DNA of 64,000 nucleotides from Heterostelium album PN500 (lineage: Eukaryota; Evosea; Eumycetozoa; Acytosteliales; Acytosteliaceae), in NCBI RefSeq assembly GCF_000004825.1, contig NW_008805072.1, positions 556,435 to 620,434 on the forward strand. Reading direction: 5' to 3'. The notes under the pieces were generated by a model, which had not been told where the DNA came from, ran no database searches, and saw only the letters and a program-made list of their open reading frames with translations. The translations under genes were made by a program, and so were the position numbers. Below, one piece after another: positions 17,434 through 33,860 of this stretch. Each line of letters starts with the position of its first letter. Positions within the stretch are counted from its first letter, which is position 1.

Positions 17434-17460
17434 ATAAAAAACGTCTTGTATCATCACGTT

Positions 17461-17533
17461 GCTCTTTTGGTGTAGTGGTTATCACATGACCTTTACACGG
17501 TCAGGGTCGTGGGTTCGATCCCCACAAGGAGTA
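17461..17533 (+). tRNA. tRNA-Val (anticodon UAC)
   Basis: Complete cloverleaf without intron. Acceptor GCTCTTT pairs with AAGGAGT (first pair G-U), with discriminator A at 17533. D-arm GTGTAGTGGTTATCAC. Anticodon stem TGACC/GGTCA encloses loop TTTACAC, anticodon TAC at 17494-17496. T-arm GTGGG-TTCGATC-CCCAC contains a perfect B-box GGTTCGATCC. The A-box TGTAGTGG is intact, so it should be transcribed by RNA polymerase III. CCA is not encoded, as normal in eukaryotes. Confidence 0.96.
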
Positions 17534-17549
17534 GCTCTATTAAACTTGT

Positions 17550-18240
17550 GCACACCGCATGCGAACAGTACAATTCAACCAAGTACCCCGTGTCCACTGT
17601 ACTGAAAGTCAACTAACCGTCCAGATTGGTCCAATCTCAGTTCCTGCAAAGCGCCTATGCTACGTAACAGCATATTCCAGCTGTACTCTCACTCCTCCCC
17701 TTAAAACACAAGCACAATGGTCATGTCTGTTAGTTCTGTGGTGACCTTCACTGAACTCTGCAACCCACATGATCACTTCTTTAAATACAGGAATGTGGTT
17801 TCACAGCAGTTCCTTTATCAAACATGTATACCGCAAGTACTGTAGCTATAGACTTCGTAATTGGAAGCACTCAAGTTCGAAGGTCCTATTCGTACTACTG
17901 TCCACTTCACCCACCCTTACTGCTGCTATCGTACATTCGTTTTGGCAGGCTCTATCCTGTAAAATGTTTGGTGATGGTACCCATTACAAGCTGGAAAATA
18001 CCGACAAGAGAGCAGTCACCCATTACACCAAATTAATCGATGCCAATTACCACAAGCTTAGCTTCACAATAGCTAATTCTATCTCCCAACGAGTCACTGT
18101 TGATTGCTCTGCAATAACGAGTAAATTTAAATCTGATTGGAATCTAAATCCTTCCAACTACGTGCCACCACTTTATACTGTTGTTCATCAACACTCTACT
18201 ACTGTTAGATCTATTCTATCCTAATACTACTCAACTAATT
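17550..18240 (+). other. Unrecognised, less AT-rich sequence downstream of tRNA-Val; possible decayed mobile element
   Basis: About 690 bp of more balanced base composition than its surroundings, starting 17 bp after the tRNA. Its longest open frame is 151 codons (17769-18224: MITSLNTGMWFHSSSF to QHSTTVRSILS). Another frame of 61 codons lies at 17559-17744. Neither matches a family I know, and the join between them needs a frame change. The last 220 bp recur in decayed form at 18431-18648. The position next to a tRNA gene and the degenerate duplicate suggest a mobile-element remnant, but I cannot identify the protein. Confidence 0.4.
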
Positions 18241-18430
18241 AATTAATAATAACTATAAACAATAATAATAATAATAATATTTTATTGGCTATTTCTCATG
18301 GCCTGTGTGAGAATGTATATATTTAATATAAAACACGAACTAGCAGGTTAATATCAATACCTGCAATTTGTTTACTGATCAGGAATCAACAAATCTTTTT
18401 TTGAAAAACAAAAAAAAAAATCAAAGAGAA

Positions 18431-18648
18431 GTCACCTAATACATGTAAAATTGATCGATGCCAATTTCCTCAAGTTTAACTTCACAATAGCTAATTCTTT
18501 CTCCCAAGGAGTCACTGTTGATTGCTCTGGAATGTCGTGTAAATTCAAATCTGATTGGAATCTAAATCCTTCCAACTTGTGACCCCACTTTATACTTCAT
18601 CAAAACTCAGCTACTGTTAGATCTATTCTAATCTATTACTTCTCAACT
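18431..18648 (+). repeat. Degenerate second copy of 18014-18235
   Basis: The block from GATCGATGCCAATT through GATTGGAATCTAAATCC to TGTTAGATCTATTCTA matches the 3' end of the preceding segment in the same orientation. Small deletions and substitutions break the reading frame, for example at the Ser/Asn-rich end. Spacing between the copies is about 415 bp. The region from 18240 to 18430 between them is AT-rich and holds a short GCAGGT/ACCTGC hairpin near 18340. Confidence 0.7.
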
Positions 18649-18947
18649 TATTTTATGGAACAGTACTGCTCTATTGGAAAAGGGAAGTGATATAGAATAT
18701 AATAAATAGATTTCAATATATACGATAATAGAAAGGTTAAATGAAATTATAATCAATGAAACAAAAAAACAAAATCAATAAAAATAATATTTGTTAAAGT
18801 AAAAGGATAAATAGATATTGAAAAAATATAAATTTAAAATGAATAGATAAATCAAAGAATTGATATGGATGAAGATAATGAATTATTTCTTTATTAATAA
18901 ATGATAAACAAATGATTTATAGCATAGAATATCAGAAAATGATTATG

Positions 18948-19358: not shown

Positions 19359-20160
19359 TGTTTGTTGTTTGTAAGGGTTGTTCTTTTATAATATAGAAAA
19401 TAAAAGAGAGAGAAAGAGTGTTAGTAAGAATATCAAAAATAAATAACTAACTAATAAAATATAAATATATATTATCTTAAAAATTAAATATTTGTAGACT
19501 AAAAAAAAAAAAAAAGAAAAAAGAAATTAAATCATAGTTTTTATAGAGTATTAAATTGATTCGTTAACTATAATATCGTAAATTCAAAAATGGCGGAAAA
19601 AGATAACAACCAATTTAAAAGTTCAAATTTAAAATATTACTTAATATTCAAATAAAGTGAAACAGTCTATTCTCAATAAATATACCTATCGTCTGAGTGA
19701 AGATGATGGTTCATTAATATTAATTAATTTGTGAAGGATATTCCAAAAAGAATTAAAAGAAAAACTATTCAAATGGGTGTTGCAAATAATAAATAAACAA
19801 TGTAACAAAAAATTAAAAAATTAATTAGATAGAAAAAATGAAATAAAATGATTATGTATTCAATTTATATATATTGAAATTGAAAGATAAGAGAATAGTT
19901 AAGAGCACTATCCATAATTTCTTGAAAATCTAAATTATTGTATCACTATAATATTATTATTTTATAGATATTTGATATTTTCACAATCATCAAACGATGA
20001 CTATTCTTTTTTATAAGATAAAGTTTATATCGATTTATCTTGTTCATATAGATGGTAGATATTTTATTATAATTTGTTTTATAACAATGAAACAAAACAA
20101 ATATAAATGATGATTTATAGTTGTGGATTAGATAATTGAAGTGTATTTTTAGAATTATAG
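19359..20160. other. Histone H1 upstream region and spacer
   Basis: Holds the H1 promoter, including the conserved module at 19556-19655, a long A run at about 19500 and AT-rich spacer. Short open frames here are of random AT-rich composition. GGGTGTTGCAAAT near 19775 also occurs in both inverted arms. Confidence 0.5.
19556..19655 (-). promoter_or_regulatory. H1-type upstream module with E2F-like site
   Basis: Reads TTGATTCGTTAAC, then TTCAAAAATGGCGG, CCAATTTAAAAG and TTAATATTCAAAT in order. The same blocks occur in the same order and spacing at about 21927-22015 and, inverted, at about 29935-30025. Read on the minus strand the core is CCGCCATTTTT, close to E2F-type sites. S-phase control of a histone gene would make sense, but the factor is an inference. 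Confidence 0.55.
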
Positions 20161-20167
20161 CTTTACA

Positions 20168-20290
20168 TACCTCAGAAGAGCTAATGCATTTAGAACACAC
20201 ACACTTCTTGGAGGTACTCCAACTGTATGGATTCCTTAGTTTCTTTGAAAGAAGTCTTAATATTGTTGATGTTCATTATACTTTCGACAT
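20168..20290 (-). pseudogene. Decayed exon fragment of an unidentified gene (copy 1)
   Basis: On the minus strand it encodes KTSFKETKESIQLEYLQEV, and after a one-base frame change CVLNALALLR, followed by a GTATGT donor. The second copy at 33708-33860 has the same exon intact (FNETKESVQFECLQEMCV). The two copies have the same orientation. The frame change shows that this copy is broken. The pattern is faintly reminiscent of TPR helices, but I cannot name the gene. Confidence 0.6.
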
Positions 20291-20584
20291 CTGAAATGTA
20301 GTTTCACTCCGATAGTATCTTAAACCTTTATTTTGTACCTGAAATCATTGAATACAAACGGTCGACGACCATCACTACCAACACCACTATTGTTTTATTT
20401 CACAGAACTTCTTGTATGCTCAATCGTAGACACTCTACAATTTGACTAGAAAGATAATGTAACTTATCTAAAGTTACTATTTTCGATACCAACTAAACTT
20501 AGTTAGCTTCAGATTAAGAGAAAGTTTAAAATTTAATTTATTTTAATTAATAGAATATTATTAATACTTTTCATTCATTTATTA

Positions 20585-20860
20585 TTAGAAGTACTTGGCC
20601 CAACGTATTGTACAATATAAGAAAGTTGAGATGCATCAATATACTAGTTCAGATCACATTTATCGGTTTATTTTCAATCTGATCTTTCAGATGATTTACT
20701 TATGATCTCTATTCAGGTTCTACCACTACTTACTAGATCGTGGATCCAGCTACAGTACAATCATCAGCTTCAAATCATTTATCATCATCATCAGCAACTC
20801 TATTTCTCAAATAAAAATAAAAAACAACAATAAAGTTAAATGTTGAGATTATAAAATATT
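20585..20860. repeat. Inverted-copy segment matching 33165-33620
   Basis: Blocks GGATCCAGCTACAGTACAAT, CATCAGCTTCAAATCATT and TGTTGAGATTATAAAATATT occur here on the plus strand and, reverse-complemented, at 33160-33620. Divergence with indels is moderate. Both copies look like exon debris of the same unidentified gene (for example a frame with DPATVQSSASNH in the right copy). No intact frame remains here. Confidence 0.65.
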
Positions 20861-20939
20861 CGATTTAAATAAAAAAGAATTTATTTTTATTTAGTAAATT
20901 TAAAGAACAATTTAAAAAAACTGATATCTGCTATTTTAA

Positions 20940-21760
20940 CACTGGCAAATACAGGAATGGATAGACAAGAGGTTGTGGGCAATGACTTATATGGTAGGTA
21001 ATGGTGATCAATGATAGAGATTAGGTGGACGGACAGAGTTTGTAGGCAATGACATAGATGGTGAGCAATGATAGAGATTGGGTGGACGACAAAGATGGTA
21101 AGTAATGACAGAGATAGTGAGCAATATAGAGGTTGGGTGGACAGACAGAGGTTGTAGGCAATGACAGAGATTGTAGTCAATGACAGAGATTGTAGTCAAT
21201 GACAGAGATTGTAGGCAATGACACAGGGTGGGTGGACGAACATAGATTGTAGGCAATGATAGAGATTGGATGGAGATGGACGGACAGAGATTGTGAGGAA
21301 TGACAGAGGAAATGACAGATGTGGTAGGTAATGACAAAGGTGGTAGGCAATGATATTGTGAGGAATGACAGAGATTGTAGGCAATGACAGAGGGTGGACG
21401 GACAGAGATGGTGAAAAATGACAGAGATTGTAGGCAATGACATAGGTTAGGTGGAAGGACAGAGATGGTGAGCAATGAAAGAGGTTGGGTGGACGGACAG
21501 AGGTTGTAGGCAATGACATAGATGGTGAGCAATGATAGAGGTTGGGTAGACGAACAGAGACGGTGAGCAAAGATAGAGATTAGGTGGACCGACAGAGATG
21601 GTGAGCAATGACAGAGGATGGACGGACAGAGATGGTGAGCAATGATAGAGGTTGGGTGGACGGACAGAGATCGTAGGCAATGACATAGATGGTAGGCATA
21701 CAGGCAGAGGTTGTATGGACGGAGAGAGATGGTAGGCAAAGAGAGAGAGACAGAAGAGAT
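20940..21760. repeat. Minisatellite, about 19 bp period (left copy)
   Basis: Irregular tandem units of the type TGACAGAGATTGTAGTCAA, with variants TGGTGAGCAATGA and TGGGTGGACGGACAGAG. The same family occurs reverse-complemented at 31410-31810. The period is not a multiple of three, and open frames of up to 243 codons on the minus strand arise only because the unit lacks stop triplets in any frame. I do not annotate them as genes. The array starts about 150 bp downstream (minus direction) of the H1-like module in the adjacent arm. Confidence 0.9.
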
Positions 21761-21762
21761 AA

Positions 21763-22182
21763 AGAAGAAAGAGATAAAAATAGATAAAATAAAGAGTTAG
21801 TAAAACAAAGATATAAATAAGTTAAAGTTATAATTAATAGTTATTACTTACAAAATTATTTGTATATGAAAAATAATGAAAAATGATATTGTGAATGAAA
21901 TTATAGGTTTATATAGTTTTAAATTTGATTCGTTAACTTACAGTTTGAACTCAAAAATGGCGGCAACCGTTAAGCGCCAATTAAAAGTATGAATTAATAT
22001 TCAAATTTGAAATATAAATATTAAAATTAATTAAATAATTCATTTTATTATAATATAATATTTAAAAATAAAAAAAACAGGCGATCATTACCAATGAAGA
22101 AACAACAAGCATAATTTTCAATTTTATTAATTTATTGAATTTGCAACACCCCACTTTTATTTGACAAATTCATCTTTTTTTT
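21763..22182 (-). repeat. Left arm of a large inverted repeat, containing an H1-like promoter module
   Basis: About 420 bp. Its reverse complement matches 29761-30185 almost base for base; I counted only a handful of differences and one short indel. It includes TTGATTCGTTAAC, CTCAAAAATGGCGG, TTAAGCGCCAATT and GGGGTGTTGCAAATTC (last on the minus strand). The near-identity in AT-rich, non-coding DNA implies a recent duplication or continuing gene conversion between the arms. The arms enclose about 7.6 kb. Confidence 0.93.
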
Positions 22183-23400
22183 GTTGCAAAAGTAAAAATA
22201 TGTTGTTTTTTTTTTTTTTTAATTAAAATAATTGAAGAAATATTAATATTTTAAAGATATTCTCAATGATAACTATTGAATAAATCAAATAGATTTGATG
22301 AATAAATGAATAGGTGTTTTGTGGTAAGTTAATCTTTTTGATAAGTTGTATAATTGAAGATAGATTGAAAGAAAGATTATTATATATTTTATAAAGATTC
22401 AATATTTACTACAAGTTGATATTTAAAAATAAAAAAAAGTATATCACTACAATAGGATCTAAATAAATTAATTTTAATTATTTATTTTAAAAGTGTCACA
22501 ATTTAATTGATTTGGTTCACGATTTATTGGAATTGAATAATGTGAAGTGGGTTTGGAAGATTGTGTTTTTTTATTTTTTTTGCAAAAAAACATCAACTAA
22601 ACTTTTAAAAATTTTAAATTTAAATTAAGACATCTCTATATATTTAAATATAATGGTGTATAATAGAGAGAGTATCGGATAAAATGACGTTAAATATTTT
22701 CAAAATTTGGCGGTTTCTTATTATTATTGATTATTTTTATATTCTATTAATATAATTAGTAAATACTATTAATATCGAAATTTTGCTTTTCATTATATGC
22801 AATATTCATATTAATTTGTTATTTATAAGTAAGTTTTATTAATATCACAATATTTTCAAGAAAAATATTTATCTAACTAACATTTATCTTTCAAATTTCT
22901 ATCAAATATAGTTTTAGTTAGTGATCGTTGATAATAATAAAGAGATAGTTGATTTCTCATTTACTTTCTTCTTTTAAAAATAAGAAATAAATTAATTTTA
23001 ATTTTATTTAAAGAACTTATCTTTATTTTATTTACTTTTTCATTTTATTATTGATAGTTTTCAATTATTGTCATAAAATTGTTGTTTTGCCACTTACGCA
23101 ATTGAAAGTGTTCAATCACTACTAGTGATTAGTGAAACTTTTTGAATAAACAAAAGAAATAATATCAGTATCATATCTATGTCCCTATACAATCAAAAAC
23201 AATATTGTATTGAGAAAAAAAAAAATTTTTTAAAAAATATATTGGGTGAAAAATTTCCAAATAAATTAGTATTATTAAATTACTTATATACATATATAGA
23301 TATTATAAATTTAGATAGTAGCTTTTAAATCGTTTTTAAATCATAATCAACATATACAACTCATAAATATATTTCATTACTTTCACAAATTAAACTAATA
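22183..23400. other. Spacer upstream of polyQ gene
   Basis: AT-rich sequence with long A and T runs. A second E2F-like element (AAAATTTGGCGGTTTC) lies near 22700. No coding frame of protein-like composition and no RNA gene was found. Confidence 0.5.
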
Positions 23401-23838
23401 ATGTCACAACAACTTAAATACCAAATTAATAATTTTCCAATTACCAGCTATTCATGGGAATTAGTTGGTATTTATTTCAAAAAGAAAGCTGAGCTCGAAG
23501 ATGAGGAAGATCGAATGAGTTTTTTTTATTATTTTATCCATGAATTCACAAGAGTCATGAAGGAATCCAAAGATCAACAGCAGCAACAGGAACCACAACA
23601 ACCACAACAAGAGATAGTTCATTATAAGTCACTTGAGGAAGTCATCAGAAGCTTTCCAATTACCAGTTTATCACTCGATTTGGTAACAATTTTCAACAAA
23701 AAGAAACTGGAGATTAAAGATGAGTCGGATCGACAGCTGTTCCTTATCTACTTTTCAAAAGAACGTTCAAGAATTGCGAGAGAACAAAAGAAACAACAAC
23801 AACAACAACAGCAACAGCAACAGCAATTTGAAACTCAA

Positions 23839-23883
<45 letters not shown>

Positions 23884-23973
23884 TTAGAACAACAAAAGAC
23901 TCAGCAAGAGCAGCAATTTGAACAAACACAAGCTCAGCAACAACAACAGCAACAGCAATTTGAAACTCAACAA

Positions 23974-24047
<74 letters not shown>

Positions 24048-24612
24048 AGTTGAGCTTCAGCAACAACATCAACAGCAATTAGAACAACAACAGACTCAAC
24101 AACAGCCACCACAAACAGTTGGACAAAAGCAAATGAACAATACATATCAATTTAAAAAACCAACTATAAATAATAAAAAAGAATATATAAACAACAATAA
24201 CAACAATAACTACGATAACGATAATATAAAATATAATAACAACAACAACAATAGCACTAAATCAATAGGAAATCAAAATACATATCAATTTAGAATTCCA
24301 ATAAATCAAAATAAAATAGAATACAATATTAATAACAACTATGTAAACAACATTGATAACATTCATAACATTAAATATTACATTCAAAACTATAAAATAA
24401 AATTCAATAACAGATCAACACCAAACCAAAACACCTTCCAATTTAGAAGACCAACTAGTTGGAAGAAGAACAACAACAACAAAATCATCAAAATCAACAC
24501 CAACATTGACAACACTGCCAATTACATTTTAAACATTATTAACAATATCAAAAACAAACCAATACCAAATAATAATACTTATCAATTTAGAATACCGAGC
24601 AATAAAAAGTAA
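23401..24612 (+). CDS. PolyQ/Asn-rich protein with duplicated N-terminal domain and four C-terminal YQFR motifs
   Basis: Single exon of 403 codons. Residues about 5-60 and 72-128 are two copies of one domain. Copy 1 has NNFPITSYSWELVGIYFKKK and EDEEDRMSFFYYF; copy 2 has RSFPITSLSLDLVTIFNKKK and KDESDRQLFLIYF. A Gln-rich tract of about 110 residues follows, coded mainly by alternating CAA and CAG. The C-terminal 150 residues are Asn-rich and carry four spaced motifs: NTYQFKKP, NTYQFRIP, NTFQFRRP and NTYQFRIP, the last just before the stop. No signal peptide or membrane segment. I do not recognise the domain. Conservation of both repeats against the Asn/Gln background argues that it is a real protein. 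It sits in the centre of the inverted-repeat block. Confidence 0.7.
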
Positions 24613-24669
24613 ATAAATAATAATAATAATAATAATAACTGGATGGAGTGGTCTGTATTATTGGAATGG

Positions 24670-25530
24670 TAATTGCTAGTCGTCTCTGGAACTTTGGGAG
24701 GATGGGTGGGCAAGGTAATCAATTGTAGAGATGTCTGGATTCTAGGTTCTGTGTTTGGTGGTTCTGGTGCTGGTACTTGTCGATGCATGGGTGGGCACCT
24801 TAGAAGGATAGTTGTAAAGGTAATATATTATTTATTTATTTATTATTATTTTTTATTATTTATTTATTTACAATGTTGTTTATATATTAATATCATATTT
24901 GTATATTATATTTAAAAAAGTAGATCAATGTTAGAGGAGTTTGGTTTCTTTGGTCATGGTCTTGGCTATATGGTGGTGGTACTGGTAGTTGCATGGGTGG
25001 CAGGGTGGGCACGATCGAAGGATCGTTGAAAAGGTAATATGTTATTATTAATTTATTTATTTATATTTATTTATTTATTTACAATGTTGTTTATATATTA
25101 ATATTATATTTGTATTATATGTAAAAAAGTAGATCAATTTTAAAAGAGTCTGATTTCTTTGGTCATGGTCTTGGCTATATGGTGGTGGTACTGGTCGTTG
25201 CATGGGTGGCAGGGTGGGCACGATCGAAGGATCGTTGTACAGGTAATATGTTATTATTTATTTATTTATTTATATTACAATGTTGTTTATTTATTAATAT
25301 TATATTTGTATTATATGTTAAAAAGTAGATCAATTTTAAAAGAGTCTGGTTTCTTTGGTCATGGTCTTGGCTATATGGTGGTGGTACTGGTCGTTGCATG
25401 GGCGGCAGGGTGGGCACGGCCGAAGGATCGTTGAAAAGGTAATATATTATTATTAATTTATTTTTTATTATTTATTTTCAATGTTGTTTATTTATTAATA
25501 TCATATTTGTATACTATATGTAAAGTGAAA
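24670..25530. repeat. Tandem repeat of about 200 bp, four copies
   Basis: Three well conserved units and one degenerate first unit. The core GGTCATGGTCTTGGCTATAT starts at about 24952, 25161 and 25357; GCATGGGTGG marks the first unit near 24784. Periods are about 207, 209 and 196 bp. Each unit has a G-rich core (GGTGGTGGTACTGG, GGCAGGGTGGGCACG) followed by an AT-rich half starting with a donor-like AGGTAATAT. Exon-plus-intron-like alternation is visible, but no unit has a convincing acceptor or protein. Confidence 0.85.
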
Positions 25531-25583
25531 TTCAGGTTAACGAAGCTCTAGGTTTTTTTTGTAGGTCTATTAAATAATTTATA

Positions 25584-25697
25584 AACGAATACAATTATAA
25601 TTGAAATTAAATATAAATAAATAAATATAATTATAAATTAATTTTATAAATATATTCATTTTATTTATATTTAATTTTAATTATTCTTGTATTCGTT
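25584..25697. repeat. Imperfect inverted repeat (hairpin), arms about 40 bp
   Basis: The left arm begins AACGAATACAATTATAATTG and the right arm ends TTATTCTTGTATTCGTT. The arms are nearly complementary over about 40 bases around a short AT loop. It marks the left border of the GC-rich island. Confidence 0.75.
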
Positions 25698-25849
25698 CTT
25701 TATTTATTTATTTATTATTTGTTTCTATCATTAATTAATACTAACAACTGACTACATTGTTTTTTTTTATTCTATATTCCAATATTACAATCAAGCTATT
25801 CCAAGTGATCCATTTCAATGGGTTCGTCCTTTTTTTTTTTCTTTCCAGG

Positions 25850-26427
25850 GTCTGGGATAACTGGGTGTCATTGCTTGTGATCCTTGCCTCTCTTATCAAG
25901 CGTGACGGCATGTCTCGATCAGTGAACCCACTGATGAGAGCCTAGTTATTAGAGAAACCTGGCGACCTGTACACCCGACCCGCCAGTTGGGGAGATTGTT
26001 GTGAGCGGTTGTCTGTGGACGGACGAAGTTAGGATGAGCGCACTTGCTTGCAGGTGGTCTTGCACATGGTAACCTCTGTGTTGATCTACAGGATGCATGG
26101 CACTGGGTCGATGGTAGGGAAACCTCCAACACATGTTACGGCTTCATATAGTCTGAAAGCAGGTGATACATACGCTGCTAGTCTGTCGCATCTTCGGGTG
26201 TGGCGACACAGAGCAGATGGAGGCGACATTCTCTGTACAGAAGGCAACGCCACAGCTATCACTTTCTTTGTTGCCTCTTCGAAGTTGTTTTATTTGCTTC
26301 GGCTTCTAACTCTGCTGTCGATTAGGAACAACAACAATTAAAGATGCTGCCGATGGTTTGTGGCAATAAATCCATCGGGGTCTCTAGGTGCCAGTAGACT
26401 CCACCTCCACGTGGTTGGCACCGGAAA
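25850..26427. other. GC-rich island of about 580 bp, nature unknown
   Basis: The base composition is roughly balanced, against the very AT-rich DNA around it. It contains no frame with a good start and protein-like composition; the longest are 97 codons or less. Complementary pieces include CTGGCG/CGCCAG (25958-25980) and GGTGCCA/TGGCACC (26387-26422), so a folded RNA is possible. It lacks the conserved blocks I know from 5S, 17S, 5.8S or 26S rRNA. It lies between hairpins at 25584-25697 and 26428-26519. Options are a structured ncRNA, the 5' end of an unknown retroelement, or captured foreign DNA. Confidence 0.5.
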
Positions 26428-26519
26428 CTCATGGATCGATAAGATTTAAAAAAATTTTTTTTTTTTTATATAGTAAAATATGTTTAAAATTAAAAAATAT
26501 TTTCTTATCGATCCATGAG
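26428..26519. repeat. Hairpin with perfect 17-bp stem
   Basis: CTCATGGATCGATAAGA at 26428-26444 is exactly complementary to TCTTATCGATCCATGAG at 26503-26519. The 58-base spacer is pure AT and itself partly self-complementary. It marks the right border of the GC-rich island. It could be a transcription end structure, a replication-sensitive palindrome or a mobile-element end. Confidence 0.9.
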
Positions 26520-26945
26520 GCTGAGAGAGTCTAAATTTTAATCTTTGCAGCTTTCGATCGATCGATGTTAACATTGATCTTGGATCACCCACACTTATAC
26601 TCACACACTCACCACACCGCAGCACAACTCAAAATTTTTTTTTCACTTTTTTTTTTTTTTTCCCTTTTTTTTTTTTCACCCAAGTCAAACACCACACATA
26701 ATTAATTATTTAATTAAAGTAATTCAAGCAACAATCGATCTATTTATTCATATTTATATATATTTTTAATTAACACTATTTCGATATAATAAAGTAAGTT
26801 TATATCATTTATGAAACATAATAATAATAATCATCATTATCATTATTATTTATAACTACTTTATTAGTAACTTATTAATTAACATTAACACATTTATACA
26901 TTTTTTTATTTATATTATTTATTCTATTTATTGATTTTATTATAG

Positions 26946-27603
26946 GCTCTTGTTGAGTGTCAATCATATAGATTATCATTGAATGATGTACTAGAATATC
27001 TCTAAATATATCGCTGGAATTCAACAAGTAAATATACTTTGAACAAAACAAAAAGATTATAGCGATCGAGTCAAATATTGATACTAATTTAATGAATTTT
27101 AAACAATTGTTATAGAGATACACAAAGTGGTCTAACACCACCATTCGGTATTTCTACATTGATTGTCGGTTTCGATTCAGACGGTACACCAAAACTTTTT
27201 CAAACAGATCCACCCGGTTCATTGAAGGAACAGGCAGCCGCCATCGGACGTAACTCAAAGACTGTCAGTGAATTTTTAGAGAAGAACTTTACAGATGAGA
27301 GTGATACTGCTTCAATTAAATTGGCTGTTAGAGCATTGCTTGAGGTAATAATATATTATTCATTTATTACTATAAATATAGTAAACAACAATGACTAACT
27401 ATTATTACTATTAATACTATTGTAATATTAACAAATAAATAGGTTGTAGAATCAGGAAATAAGAATATTGAAATTGCTATCAATAAATGAAATGAACCAA
27501 TTAAATTCTTCAAGGAATCCGAAGTCGAATAGTTGGTAGATGAAGTCGAAAAGGAGAAGGATGAAGAGAAGGAAGCTACTGCAACCGCTCCAAAGAAATA
27601 AAT
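26946..27603 (+). pseudogene. psmA7: Broken, N-terminally truncated copy of proteasome subunit alpha type-7 (alpha-4)
   Basis: Matches the C-terminal half of PSMA7. Exon 1 at 26946-27027 encodes ALVECQSYRLSLNDVLEY, then runs into TAA; a shifted frame restores SKYIAGIQQ. Exon 2 from 27116 begins out of frame: its opening R-Y-T block appears to have lost a CA dinucleotide. It then continues [18 protein letters not shown] and [16 protein letters not shown] to VRALLE (27342). Exon 3 (27443 on) encodes VVESGNKNIEIAINK and then meets TGA, and later TAG, inside the normal tail (LVDEVEKEKDEEKE). The lesions are two frame changes and two stops, and the N-terminal half is absent. Introns are kept, so the copy arose by DNA duplication and not by reverse transcription. 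A working gene must exist elsewhere. Confidence 0.92.
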
Positions 27604-27864
27604 GAGAAGATTAACATAAAATTAGTTAACATTGTCAATCAATCAATCAACCAATATATAAAACATGTAGTTAATAATAATAATAATAACAACATTGTTT
27701 TCTTCACCTACTTCTACTTTTATTAATAATAATACTTATTTCCTTGTTGATAACATAATACACACTCATAAATTAAAACTTAAAACAACAATATCAATCA
27801 ATCAAATTTTAAATAAAAAGTTGATATCTTTCAAATTCTTTTTAATTATTTCTTTTATTAACAG

Positions 27865-28980
27865 AGTTGATTGCACTTAGTTGCTGGACTGAGTTACCGG
27901 ACTGAGTTCCCAGATTGAGTTAGTTACCGGACTGAGTTACCGGACTGAGTTGCCGGACTGAGTTACCAGATTGAGTTAGTTACCGGACTCAGTTACCTGA
28001 CTCATTTACCGGACTCAGTTACCGGACTGAGTTACCTGACTGAGTTACCTGACTGAGTTACCTGACTGAGTTACCAGATTGAGTTAGTTACCGGACTCAG
28101 TTACCTGACTGAGTTACCTGACTGAGTTACCTGACTGAGTTACCAGATTGAGTTAGCTACCGGACTCAGTTACCTGACTGAGTTACTAGACTGAGTTACC
28201 TGACTGAGTTACCAGATTGAGTTAGTTACCGGACTGAGTTACCAGACTGAGTTACCTGACTGAGTTACCTGACTGAGTTACCAGTTTGAGTTAGTTACCG
28301 GACTCAGTTACCTGACTCAGTTACCAGATTGAGTTAATTATCGGACTCAGTTACCTGACTCAGTTACCAGATTGAGTTAGTTACCGGACTGAGTGACCTG
28401 ACTGAGTTACCAGATTGAGTTAATTACCGGACTCAGTTACCTGACTGAGTTACTGGACTGAGTTACCTGACTCAGTTACCAGATTGAGTTAATTACCGGA
28501 CTCAGTTACCTGACTCAGTTACCAGATTGAACTAGTTACCGGACTCAGTTACCGAACGATTGAATTAGTTACCGGACTCAGTTACCAGACTGAGTTACCG
28601 GTCTGAGATACCTGACTGAGTTACCTGACTGAGTTACCTGACTGAGTTACCTGACTCAGTTACCAGACTGAGTTACCAGACTAAGTTACCTCACTTAGTT
28701 AGTTACCGGTCTCAGTTACCTGACTGAGTTACCTGACTGAGTTACCTGACTCAGTTACCTCACTTAGTTAGCTACCGGTCTCAGTTACCTGACTCAGTTA
28801 CCGGACTCAGTTGATGACTTAGTTGACTTAGTTACCTACTGAATTATGAGTTACCGGACTTAGTTAGTTACCAGACTCAGATGATTCCATTTAGATACCG
28901 GACTGAGTTAGTTACCGAGCTGAGTAACTGGACTGAGTTGATGACTCAGTTGACTCAGTTGACTCAATTGCCATACTTAG
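27865..28980. repeat. Minisatellite of 13-bp period, about 1.1 kb
   Basis: Around 80 units of the form ACTGAGTTACCTG, with variants ACTCAGTTACC, ATTGAGTTAGTTACCGG and ACCGG/ACCAG endings. Longer super-units recur, for example the ATTGAGTTAGTTACCGG variant returning every few units. The period is not a multiple of three and frames are interrupted, so it is not coding. It begins about 260 bp after the pseudogene's last codon. Confidence 0.95.
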
Positions 28981-29181
28981 TTGCCCGAAGCCATAGTTTC
29001 CGTTAACTCCACAACTCAGATACTATTGATACTTACTTCAACTACATATCTTAGTTTCGATCAACTCTACAATTCAATTCCCTTCAACTCCATAACATGG
29101 TTACCGATGAACACACCACTCTCAATTTCCATCTGCTCATCTACTCCTTACCATCAATTTCACAAATCGATAAAATAAAAT

Positions 29182-29760
29182 CAAAAGATAAAATTATAAA
29201 GGTAGTTTAAATTTTTATTGAAATAGTAATTTTGTTGAATCCAAACACTCATAAATGTTAAATTACTTGACCAGGAGCAGAAGTAGCAAAAGTCATTCTA
29301 CTACCACTAATCCAACAACATCATCAACCTCAACTTTATTAAATATTTCTGGTAATGAAGTGTTGATGAATTATTTGTTGTTGTGGTTCAGTTTTGTCTA
29401 AATGTTTATATAAAATCTTTAATAATTTTATTTGATCTCTGAGTAATTAAGAACTTAATTCTGAAACAACTGATTTAATTTAATTATAACTGTGAAGTGA
29501 AACCATTCAACCTATAAAAAGATTTAAATTTAATATAATATAAATTAATGAAAATAATGATTTTAGATATTTTAAAAAGAATCTAGTATCTATTCTTTTT
29601 ATAAATTCATGATCAATAATATGAATAATAATAAATGAAAGAGATTTTTATAACATATAGAATTACTTATTGTATCTTTTATTATTAATCATATCTTTCA
29701 AAAATTAAATTTTTAATTAGTCATTTAAAAAAACCAACATTTTTTTTTTGAAACACCAGC
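29182..29760. other. Spacer between the 13-bp minisatellite and the right inverted arm
   Basis: AT-rich. The only candidate frame is 29255-29401 (49 codons, MLNYLTRSRSSKSHS to LLLWFSFV), Ser/Thr-rich and unrecognised; I do not call it a gene. Confidence 0.45.
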
Positions 29761-30185
29761 AAAAAAAAAAAGATGAATTTGTCAAATAAAAGTGGGGTGT
29801 TGCAAATTCAATAAATTAATAAAATTGAAAATTATGCTTGTTGTTTCTTCATTGGTAATGATCGCCTGTTTTTTTTATTTTTAAATATTATATTATAATA
29901 AAATGAATTATTTAATTAATTTTAATATTTATATTTCAAATTTGAATATTAATTCATACTTTTAATTGGCGCTTAACGGTTGCCGCCATTTTTGAGTTCA
30001 AACTGTAAGTAAACGAGGATCAAATTTAAAACTATTTAAACCTATAATTTCATTCACAATGTCATTTTTCATTATTTTTCAAATACAAATAATTTTGTAA
30101 GTAATAACTATTAATTATAACTTTAACTTATTTATATCTTTGTTTTACTAACTCTTTGTTTATCTCCTTTTATCACTTTCTTCTT
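29761..30185 (+). repeat. Right arm of the large inverted repeat, containing an H1-like promoter module
   Basis: Inverted partner of 21763-22182. It carries the same blocks in reverse: GGGGTGTTGCAAATTC, TTGGCGCTTAACGG, TTGCCGCCATTTTTGAG. The differences from the left arm that I can see are mostly near GTTAACG versus GTAAACGAGG and in the terminal TTTATC tract. It leads directly into the 22-bp minisatellite, just as the left arm leads into the 19-bp one. Confidence 0.93.
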
Positions 30186-30194
30186 TTCCAAGTC

Positions 30195-31405
30195 CGCTTT
30201 ACCATGCCTGTTGCCTCCTTACTATAAGAATGCCTCGTTGCTATTCCGGTTTCCTCTCGTAGTTATGCCGGTTTCCTCTAGTCGTTATTCTGGTTTCCTC
30301 TCTTCGCTATACCGGTTTCCTCTCGTCGTTATGCTGGTTTCCTCTCGTCGTTATGCCGGTCTCCTCTCGTCACTATGCCGGTTCTCTCTCGTTTCTATGC
30401 CGTTTGCCACTCGTCACTTGCCGGTTTCCTCTCGTAGTTATGCTGGTTTCCTCTCGTCGTTATGCCGGTTTCCTCTCTTCGTTATGCTGGTTTCCTCTCG
30501 TCACTATGCCGATTTCCTCTCGTCACTATGCCGATTTCCTCTCATCACTATGCCGATTTGCTCTCGTCACTATGCTGGTTTCCTCTCGTCACTATGCCGA
30601 TTTTCTCTCGTCGTTATGCTGGTTTCCTCTCGTTTCTATGCCGGTTTCCTCTCGTCGTTATGCTGGTTTCCTCTCGTTTCTATGCCGGTTTCCTCTCGTT
30701 GTTATGCTGGTTTCCTCTCGTTACTATGCCGGTTTTCTCGTCGTTATGCTGGTTTCCTCTCATCACTATGCTGGTTTCCTCTCATCACTATGCCGGTTTC
30801 CTCTCGTCGTTATGCCGATTTCCTCTCTTCGTTATGCTGGTTTCCTCTCGTCACTATGCCGATTTCCTCTCGTCACTATGCCGATTTCCTCTCATCACTA
30901 TGCCGATTTGCTCTCGTCACTATGCTGGTTTCCTCTCGTCACTATGCCGATTTTCTCTCGTCGTTATGCTGGTTTCCTCTCGTTTCTATGCCGGTTTCCT
31001 CTCGTCGTTATGCTGGTTTCCTCTCGATTCTATGCCGGTTTCCTCTCGTTGCTATGCTGGTTTCCTCTCGTTACTATGCCGGTTTTCTCGTCGTTATGCT
31101 GGTTTACTCTCATCACTATGCTGGTTTCCTCTCATCACTATGCCGGTTTCCTCTCGTCAATATGCTGGTTTCCTCTCGTCAATATGCTGTTTCCTCTCGT
31201 CACTATGCCGTTTTCCTCTCGTCGTTATGCTGTTTTCCTCTCGTCGTTATGCTGGTTTCCTCTCGTCGTTATGCTGGTTTCCTCTCGTCACTATGCCGGT
31301 TTCCTCTCGTTTCTATGCCGGTTTCCTTCTCGTTTCTATGCCGTTGGTCTCTCGTTTCAATGCCAGTCGCTTCTCGTTTCTATGCCTGTCCCATCTCGTA
31401 TTTAT
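30195..31405. repeat. Minisatellite of 22-bp period with higher-order structure
   Basis: About 55 units of GGTTTCCTCTCGTCGTTATG plus CT, with variants (TCACTATGCCGAT, TTTCTATGCCG). Since 22 is not a multiple of 3, every frame cycles through the same 66-nt series, so all three plus-strand frames are open for over 450 codons and spell the same cyclic 22-residue peptide (for example RYAGFLSSLCWFPLV). That is expected of the repeat and not evidence of a protein. A segment of about 350 bp (16 units) is itself duplicated: the rare GATTTGCTCTCGTCAC variant is at 30555 and again at 30905. Confidence 0.95.
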
Positions 31406-31409
31406 GCCA

Positions 31410-31810
31410 GTCTCCTCTGTCCGTCCATCCAATCTCTGTCATTGCTCACAATCTTATCATTGCTCACCATCTCTGTCCGTCCACTCACCCTCTGTTATTG
31501 CCCACAATCTCTGTCATTGCTCACAATCTATATCATTGCCTACCATCTCTGCCATACAATCTCTGTCATTGCTCACAATCTCTGTACTTGCCTACCTCCT
31601 CTGCCATACAATCTCTGTAATTGCCTACCATCTCTGCCATTGCCTACAATATATGTTCGTCCACCCACCCTATGTCATTGCCTACAATCTCTGTCATTGC
31701 CTACAATATATGTTCGTCCACCCACCCTATGTCATTGCTCATAATCTCTGTCATTGCCTACAAACTCTGTCATTGACTACCATCTCTGTCTGTCGATCGA
31801 ATATCATTCC
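31410..31810. repeat. Minisatellite, 19-bp family (right copy, inverted)
   Basis: Units such as CAATCTCTGTCATTGCCTA and CTCTGTCCGTCCA are the reverse complement of the array at 20940-21760. It joins the 22-bp array directly. The right side is therefore arm, 22-bp array, then 19-bp array, whereas the left side has only arm and 19-bp array. Confidence 0.9.
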
Positions 31811-32859
31811 TTCAATGATTGTCTGAATTTACCTCTTTTGACACTTATCTCAATATTTTCGCACTATTTCAACCAAATAAGGACCAAGAATCAAATAAGA
31901 GTACTCGATTCAAAATATACACTCGTCATCCAAGCTGATTCTCAAAAAGGTGGTTTCAAATATAAAAAGCAAGAAAGATCAAATTAATAATTAACAATTT
32001 TGTAATTTAATTTAATCAATATCTACTAAAGGTATATATTTAATATAATAAATAAATAATGAATTCATAGCAATCGATTGAGCAACTGTTTTGGCGTACT
32101 AAAGAGTCTTAAAATATCAACCTCTTTATTCTTCAATCGCTTTCTCTATGCATAACCTGAAGTGAGTTAAATTGTTATAATACTTTAATTCAATACACAT
32201 CTTTTTAAATGACCACGGTTGAGTTCTGTTGTGGGCAATCTGCAGGAAAAATTTTTAATAAGTCACCCCAATTTAAATTCTTTCTTTGTAAAACCAACCA
32301 CGGTGCAATATATTTTTACCCCTTTGTTACAAACAACTTTTAAACAAATGAACAAGAGTTTAATTTTTTGTAAATTGACAATTTTTTATCTTTAATTAAT
32401 CTATCTCTAATATTTTAATAAGATTCGATGTTTTTGACAATTTACAAAACCACTGGTCGTTTTGAAATTTTAATATCCTCCTTTTGTTTACTTTAAATTA
32501 AATTAACAAGAGTTTAATTTTATGTAAATTGGCAAATTCTATTTATATCATTAATTAAGTATTTAATAGTTGATGAGCTTTCTTCTATCATTAGAAACAA
32601 AAAACAAAACAATAATAGTTATATATAAATTCTTAATATTTACAAAAACTTCTAAAAAATAAATATGGATAGTGGTGGCAACTCTGGTGATATTACTATA
32701 TGATGGTTCTGTTATTAAAAATATAAGAATGGTAGTTTCAAATAAATAATAAAAAAAAAAGACTGTGTTGTTTTTGAGTTGGGAAGTGCAATATTGCACG
32801 ATTCAAGCTCAGATAAATATAAGATGGAAAAATAAATTGATAAAACCTTAACGAAAAAG
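31811..32859. other. Spacer within the repeat block, no gene seen
   Basis: AT-rich with scattered short frames. ACAAGAGTTTAATTTT followed by TGTAAATTG occurs twice (near 32351 and 32508), a small direct repeat. Nothing else identifiable. Confidence 0.45.
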
Positions 32860-33000
32860 ACGTAGTTTAATAGAGGAAAACTTTAAAGCAGAAGGAAAGG
32901 TATGTCCTTTATGTCATAAGTTAAATCATCACATTTTAATTAAACACGTTTATAAGTATTGTATGTCTGTTAAAACTTGGGATATATCTGTTTATTAATT
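32860..33000 (+). mobile_element. Remnant of a non-LTR retroelement zinc-finger region
   Basis: A frame without start reads LIEENFKAEGKVCPLCHKLN, continues HHILIKHVYKYCMSVKTWD and then stops. CPLC...KYC with two His between follows the CxxC...HxxxC layout at the end of non-LTR reverse transcriptases. Frames upstream are broken by stops. Only this short piece is recognisable, so it is an old relic. Confidence 0.45.
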
Positions 33001-33164
33001 GCAATATCAGAATTGATTTAATCCAAATAGAATTCATAATGTGGTTGTTGATGATGATCGATATTGATTTAGATTGTTATATTTGAAACTCGACAAACCA
33101 GCAAATGTTAATATAAATTCACTAAATAAAAATAAATTCGTTAATATTAATATCATTAGTGATT

Positions 33165-33620
33165 TGCGCTATGAGTATTTTATAATCTCAACATTCAACT
33201 TTATTTAATTTTATTTAATCACTTTATGTCGTTAATCTTTCTTTCTATCAATAATTTATATTATTGTTATTTTTTATTTTTGTTTGAGAAAATAGAGTTG
33301 TTCTTGCAGTTGATATATTAGTTGTTGTTCGGAATGGTGATCGACTATTTGTGTGGCAGGTGCTTACTACATAAGTGATATGTCTTTTGTCCTGTGTCAT
33401 TGTTGATGCTTGGAATAGCTATACTGAATGGTGTCATCGTTGTTTGTTGTTAATTATGTTGTTGCTGCTGATGATGAATGATTTGAAGCTGATGATTGTA
33501 CTGTAGCTGGATCCCACCATCTCGTAAGTAGTGGTATCACTTGATATATCGAGGGTAGGCCAAGTATCTGCAACTTATATTTACAATACGTTTGGCCAAA
33601 GTACTTCTTATAATAAATGA
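33165..33620. repeat. Inverted-copy segment matching 20585-20860
   Basis: Reverse-complement partner of the left segment, sharing ATTGTACTGTAGCTGGATCC and the AATATTTTATAATCTCAACA-like block. On the minus strand a frame with RWWDPATVQSSASNHSSS is partly open, which suggests exon debris of the gene whose other exon lies at 33708-33860. Confidence 0.65.
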
Positions 33621-33707
33621 ATGATCATTATTGGTTCTCTATATATAAAAACGATTCCAGTAAATTAGATAATTGCAGTATATTTTTAATATTATAAATT
33701 TAATTAC

Positions 33708-33860
33708 CTCAGAAGAGCTAATGCATTTAAAACACACATTTCTTGGAGGCACTCAAACTGTACTGATTCTTTGGTTTCGTTGAAAGCAGCGTCTTGATAT
33801 TGTTGATGATCATTGTACTCTTTCAACATCTGAAGTGCTCTTGTATAATATAATAACTTG
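33708..33860 (-). pseudogene. Exon of an unidentified gene (copy 2, better preserved)
   Basis: The minus strand encodes KLLYYTRALQMLKEYNDH, QQYQDAAFNETKESVQFE and CLQEMCVLNALALLR, then a GTAATT donor. The reading frame is intact over about 50 residues, unlike copy 1 at 20168-20290. Helical, possibly TPR-like. The neighbouring piece at 33440-33620 could be the next exon. No complete gene can be assembled, so I treat it as a fragment. Confidence 0.5.

Follow-up and report, generated by a model that had tools for sequence, protein, structure and literature searches.

Foldback-type elements such as Tetris (PMC4079207) and Galileo (PMC3573991) are described in the cited reports as having long inverted arms with internal tandem repeats. 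In the accounts of self-cleaving RNAs cited here, the hepatitis delta virus (HDV)-like ribozymes of mobile elements belong to retrotransposons that lack long terminal repeats (non-LTR retrotransposons), and a long P4/L4 region is tolerated in these ribozymes (PMC3774820, PMC4035085). Among the mobile elements of dictyostelids, DIRS-1 is reported to be missing from assembled P. pallidum sequences (PMC5006619). Here we describe a satellite-rich block in the dictyostelid Heterostelium album PN500 that shares features with each of these systems. The block lies at about 21.0-31.8 kb of the window, by which we mean the whole stretch of 64,000 nucleotides that was analysed (NCBI RefSeq assembly GCF_000004825.1, contig NW_008805072.1, positions 556,435 to 620,434 of the forward strand). 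It contains two inverted arms, a polyglutamine (polyQ) gene and a GC-rich island.

We found that the block is one copy of a dispersed low-copy repeat family and that the element is foldback-like in its anatomy. The explanation that we favour, and consider probable, is that the block is a copy of a foldback-type element that carries a conserved island, predicted to yield a self-cleaving RNA, and a polyQ protein kept by selection.

In a search of 32.9 Mb of genome in 39 contigs, the left 420-bp arm had 28 matches including the window's own, and 19 of these cover at least 386 of the 420 bp at 92-100% identity. The arms form eight inverted pairs that span 6.9-9.2 kb and lie on six contigs, with two pairs each on C7 and C12. 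We named the pairs A (the window copy) to H, the last of which has a partial right arm, and the partial or solo copies I to N. Core pieces are common to copies A-G, I and J at 74-98% identity; the core of H is different. Apart from three outer modules considered below, the copies of arm and core sit in differing flanking DNA. A preliminary description of this stretch had raised the idea of a large mobile or amplified unit. This idea holds insofar as arms, arrays and core form a dispersed repeat family found on several contigs; that the unit is mobile is what its dispersal suggests.

The inverted symmetry claimed for the block was borne out by a self-comparison of 19-35 kb, which shows inverted matches between the flanks. 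The left arm (21763-22182, + strand) and the right arm (29761-30185, - strand), both placed by self-comparison and genome matches, are inverted stretches of ~400 bp that are 97-99% complementary. Within them, 21930-22187 and 29759-30016 are 99% complementary over 258 nt, and 21787-21929 and 30019-30161 are 97% complementary over 143 nt. A 19-bp minisatellite makes up the outer part of the left arm (21001-21748, - strand, from tandem-repeat and array-orientation comparison) and recurs, inverted, at 31415-31790 (+ strand), so the earlier report of this satellite on both flanks was correct. The right-hand array lies beyond a 22-bp minisatellite (30234-31412, + strand), which forms the outer part of the right arm and is indeed confined to that flank. 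Among the 25 inverted pairs listed, from 47 found, 22 connect the two 19-bp arrays at 74-92%. The extent first given to the block has to be narrowed: the unit proper begins with the left 19-bp array and ends with the right one, and the pieces outside it are flanking material. An assembly artefact was rejected as the origin of the layout because the window contains no N and other copies show the same layout; a gap of 100 N is present in copy F.

The GC-rich island (25800-26597, + strand as judged from the ribozyme motif) was rightly placed in the centre of the block by the preliminary description, which missed both its exceptional conservation and the motif within it. We predict that the island encodes a self-cleaving RNA of the HDV type. 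The candidate ribozyme (26387-26533, + strand) has P1, P2, P3, P1.1 and P4 in double-pseudoknot order with a C in J4/2, which is the structural plan of an HDV-like ribozyme. The names of the ribozyme parts and the CNRA-type rule for J4/2 are general background. P1 has 7 bp (26387-26393/26416-26422), P2 has 7 bp with its 3' strand beyond the long P4 hairpin (26395-26401/26527-26533), P3 has 3 bp and the loop CUCCAC (26402-26404/26411-26413), P1.1 has two pairs (26407-26408/26423-26424), and P4 starts from 26428/26519. The putative catalytic C in J4/2 is C26521, and cleavage is predicted between 26386 and 26387, 5' of P1. Rfam model RF02682 matches at 26387 (27.9 bits, E 0.009) and at the same place in six of the seven further loci scanned (not L013), with E values of 0.33-0.39.

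The strongest of the alternatives, which we regard as possible but unlikely, is that this motif has no cleavage activity, being either a fossil or a look-alike. All core parts are in register, and P1, P2, P3, L3, P1.1 and J4/2 are invariant in all eight copies, which argues against this alternative, as does the rarity of the motif in controls. A motif scan of both strands of 349,203 fetched bases, in which overlapping loci are counted more than once, found seven places, all of them islands (7/8 islands); there were no matches in 3.84 Mb of random sequence made to island composition by a first-order model, and an earlier run found none in 16 random sequences of 64 kb. Several points nevertheless weigh against our prediction. 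The Rfam score falls short of the curated threshold of 44, and the Rfam alignment puts the 3' part elsewhere, inside the stretch that we take as P4. No compensatory changes were seen among the 264 predicted pairs across copies; P4 has three substitutions among copies, one of which keeps the pair as G-U. The motif scan misses copy I, which has a mismatch in P4, and as the script was written after the site was seen, the scan gives rarity and no independent prediction. Finally, the upstream 538 nt without the ribozyme part fold no better than shuffled sequence (z -0.94 on the + strand, -0.44 on the - strand). The whole island has a fold z of -5.82 on the + strand and -3.10 on the - strand (20 shuffles each), so this strong value seems to be due mostly to the hairpin region. 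For comparison, z was -0.06 and -2.14 in two further GC-rich stretches of the window. The island was rejected as a known Rfam family at curated thresholds, since the window scan lists only a tRNA at 17461.

The dispersal of the family might also be explained without a transposable element. The copies might have arisen by segmental duplication of a host locus and spread by ectopic recombination, in which case the arms would serve as recombination substrates only. The sequence outside the arrays favours this explanation. There we recognized three recurring modules: alpha in copies B, C, D, F and G; beta in C, D, E, F and G; and gamma, which consists of debris of a gene that we call gene X, on both sides of A, on one side of E and of L, and on the right of I, with a short piece on its left. 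These modules run past the arrays to differing extents among copies, so that the outer ends of the unit cannot be fixed. Additionally, between K and F on C12 and between G and L on C28, five pieces, 106-1261 bp long, are 90-99% identical between the DNA outside the left arm of F and that outside the right arm of G, and this is a segmental duplication. No shared transposase was recognized, which also counts in favour of this alternative: a Pfam scan of ten segments gave a single DDE_Tnp_4 match, in copy H only. Copy H (L015, C12:733800-741300) holds this piece (E 3.2e-11) and hAT-like pieces, recognized by eye, between family arms. H is a doubtful candidate for an autonomous partner: the DDE and hAT-like pieces seem to be other transposons that became trapped in this copy. 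In copy F a Ty3-like polymerase frame was recognized, by eye only.

On the other side, inverted arms enclose the shared unit in the eight pairs, and the arrays are strictly oriented. In the first 1600 nt beyond each arm end, with ends oriented outward, 20 of 20 ends carry 22- or 19-bp units that point outward, and none carries them in the opposite orientation. As the orientation is the same at all 20 ends, the arrays are parts of the unit, which is also the case in foldback elements. Had the element inserted into a minisatellite that was already there, both sides would show the same strand, and the array orientation contradicts this. In the genome, 371 places match the 22-bp pattern. Among those listed, all lie at family loci except two: the site at C3:93 kb is 10 kb from a gene-X match, and that at C10:485 kb adjoins a core match. 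Long inverted terminal arms with tandem repeats, as in foldback-type elements, are thus a property of this family, and on balance we think that duplication of a host locus is an unlikely source of the copies.

The modules and arms also bear on the history of the family. In copies C, D, F and G the core is set one way, with beta on the left and alpha on the right. In copy E the core is opposite relative to the modules, a result that rests on a short beta match of 53-99 bp, and copy B has alpha sequence on both sides. In a tree of arms, the left and right arm of the same copy group together in A, B, E and H, with varying support, but not in C, D, F and G. These end modules and the arm tree suggest exchange between copies through their arms, and perhaps one inversion of the core in the history of the family. 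The earlier suggestion of an inversion hotspot is therefore partly supported by the comparison of copies, in which core orientation relative to the outer modules is reversed in copy E, and the window copy itself shows no sign for or against inversion.

No other part of the core varies nearly as little as the island of ~800 bp. Seven further near-complete copies are 98-99% identical to the window's, and identity is 98-100% across all eight. In the island (25849-26545) 21 of 697 columns vary, as against 35 of 212 in the adjoining flanks (seven copies, copy F omitted, ungapped columns only; Fisher p 9.5e-11). For divergence along the core we used a finer table without copy J, because in the whole-core table copy J distorts the values for the island, and those at the right arm are distorted as well. 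After the island, the left arm varies least, at ~2-4%. A relic of the first 155 bp of the island at C11:649509 is only 92% identical. The ends of the island are complementary over 8 bases (25805-25812/26581-26588), with one pair broken in copy D, and could be a closing stem or the short inverted ends of a smaller unit.

It is possible that the island owes its uniformity to gene conversion, or to a recent spread between copies, rather than to any importance of its sequence. The four-gamete test fails at sites inside the island, which indicates recombination within it, and gene conversion may therefore have contributed to the uniformity. However, on either side variation drops at roughly the same position and over a few tens of bases, and conversion alone explains no such limits. 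A point against our explanation is copy J, which keeps the polyQ gene but is without the island. The gap in J (25862-26690) differs from the limits of the island, so J looks like a deletion and not like an empty site, and this argues against the alternative of conversion or spread. We therefore doubt that conversion or spread accounts for the island, although we give this alternative some weight. We think it very improbable that the island encodes a protein of ~131 residues and that its RNA features are incidental: the frame is open in 7/8 copies and the 16 variable sites upstream of the ribozyme fall 5/4/7 over its codon positions, a slight third-position excess that may slightly favour coding, but there is a stop in the window copy, a Pfam search finds no match, and the conserved block reaches well past the frame on both sides.

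The polyQ gene lies in the centre of the block, as had been described, with its ATG at 23401 and its stop at 24612 (+ strand, placed by open reading frame and the selection analysis), and its frame is family-wide. The first 130 residues of the protein have 14 genome matches, at family loci and at a relic at C3:1423767. The ratio of nonsynonymous to synonymous differences (pN/pS), summed over ten comparisons of five copies, is 0.33, which indicates that the frame has been under purifying selection. This analysis used 5 of 10 copies, those with a frame uninterrupted between two motifs; copies E and G were left out for an unfit end motif, B for a frameshift, and M and K as incomplete. A Pfam scan of the first 130 residues and of two gene-X pieces gave no match, and an AlphaFold model of the same residues, made without an alignment, has a mean predicted local distance difference test score of 47.7. 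The polyQ frame is the sole long non-repetitive frame of the window core, where no reverse transcriptase or tyrosine recombinase was found among the frames listed. At L043 (C3:1422300-1425300) the polyQ-gene relic has an inverted second part, and no arm or island match was found in the 3 kb read. Contigs end inside the polyQ gene at C4:1-291 and C17:1301106-1301411, and may be chromosomal neighbours.

Based on these results, we propose a model for the element. Two long inverted arms, each consisting of a conserved 420-bp segment and an outward minisatellite, enclose a core of ~7.6 kb. The island would be transcribed on the + strand, and the RNA would cut itself at the predicted site by means of the HDV-type ribozyme, so that the RNA upstream of the cut, up to ~540 nt long, would have a defined 3' end. 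This upstream RNA and the polyQ protein may be what the element itself needs, whereas the DNA may move via a transposase acting in trans or via recombination between the long arms. A bolder version, to which we assign a low probability, is that this is a selfish foldback DNA element whose chief conserved product is an RNA that cleaves itself; selection would then keep this catalytic RNA and the polyQ protein rather than an encoded transposase.

The remaining features of the core are repeats and a captured gene fragment; tandem arrays of 13, 19, 22 and 196 bp are all present in the block. The 196-bp tandem repeat (24789-25524, 3.6 units) has units that resemble repeated exon-intron pairs, in which GTAATA and an AT-rich part come after a GC-rich part. 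A 13-bp minisatellite lies at 27875-28812. The pseudogene that had been noted in the centre is a fragment of a proteasome-subunit gene (27096-27600, + strand; PF00227, E 8.1e-16). It is part of a segment (26840-27790) that also occurs in copies E, G and J at 93-94% and matches C11:469307-470285, ~113 kb from the window copy, at 90%. The apparent intron in the fragment indicates that it was copied as DNA. Copies B, C, D, F and I have other sequence at this place.

Outside the unit, gene-X debris lies on the left at 20516-20857 (- strand) and on the right at 33104-33632 (+ strand). It is inverted between the flanks, as first described, in three pieces of 59-87 bp at 78-89%, with a best ungapped core of 57 nt at 93%. 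The outermost copies (20127-20298 and 33664-33837) are, again as described, direct repeats, 83.5% identical over 176 columns. The relic on the right (31841-32679) is a dispersed repeat with matches of 89% and 83% at C2:851137-851927; the label of retroelement given to it is neither confirmed nor refuted. We count the gene-X debris and this relic as flanking or secondary because both recur elsewhere in the genome. Three further repeats were also seen. A diverged arm piece lies left of the block at 19402-19653 (68% over 230 arm bases), and a second short dispersed repeat at 32807-33006 is found at C5:909556 (91%) and at three more places (85-91%). Just past a tRNA-Val gene (17460-17535), a repeat at ~17700-18650 is 90% shared with the right flank of copy L and may be a tRNA-gene-targeting element.

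The family accounts for the satellite-rich block, and its copies are a natural series for studying exchange and inversion between long arms. Compared with DIRS-1 of dictyostelids, as portrayed in the cited papers (PMC5006619, PMC5633606), the element shares inverted terminal repeats and a dictyostelid host; unlike DIRS-1, its window core has no recognized reverse transcriptase or tyrosine recombinase frame. The candidate ribozyme has the nested double-pseudoknot plan reported for those of R2 (PMC3774820) and L1Tc/ingi (PMC4035085) and, like them, lies inside a repeated element. In contrast to these, its position is in the 3' part of a conserved block, within a unit with inverted arms, rather than 5'-terminal in a reverse-transcriptase element, and its activity is predicted. 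In the open-access titles and abstracts surveyed, no dictyostelid and no inverted-repeat DNA element is named as having an HDV-like ribozyme. A ribozyme in the most conserved segment of an inverted-arm unit poses the question of what use a self-cleaving RNA is to an element without its own reverse transcriptase. Relative to Tetris and Galileo, as the cited reports present them, the array units are 19 and 22 bp rather than ~210-220 bp, and the window core has no transposase match and carries a ribozyme-like island and a polyQ gene. The likenesses to these two elements are long arms with tandem repeats, apparently non-autonomous members, array lengths that change separately in each arm, and chimeric copies attributed to recombination.

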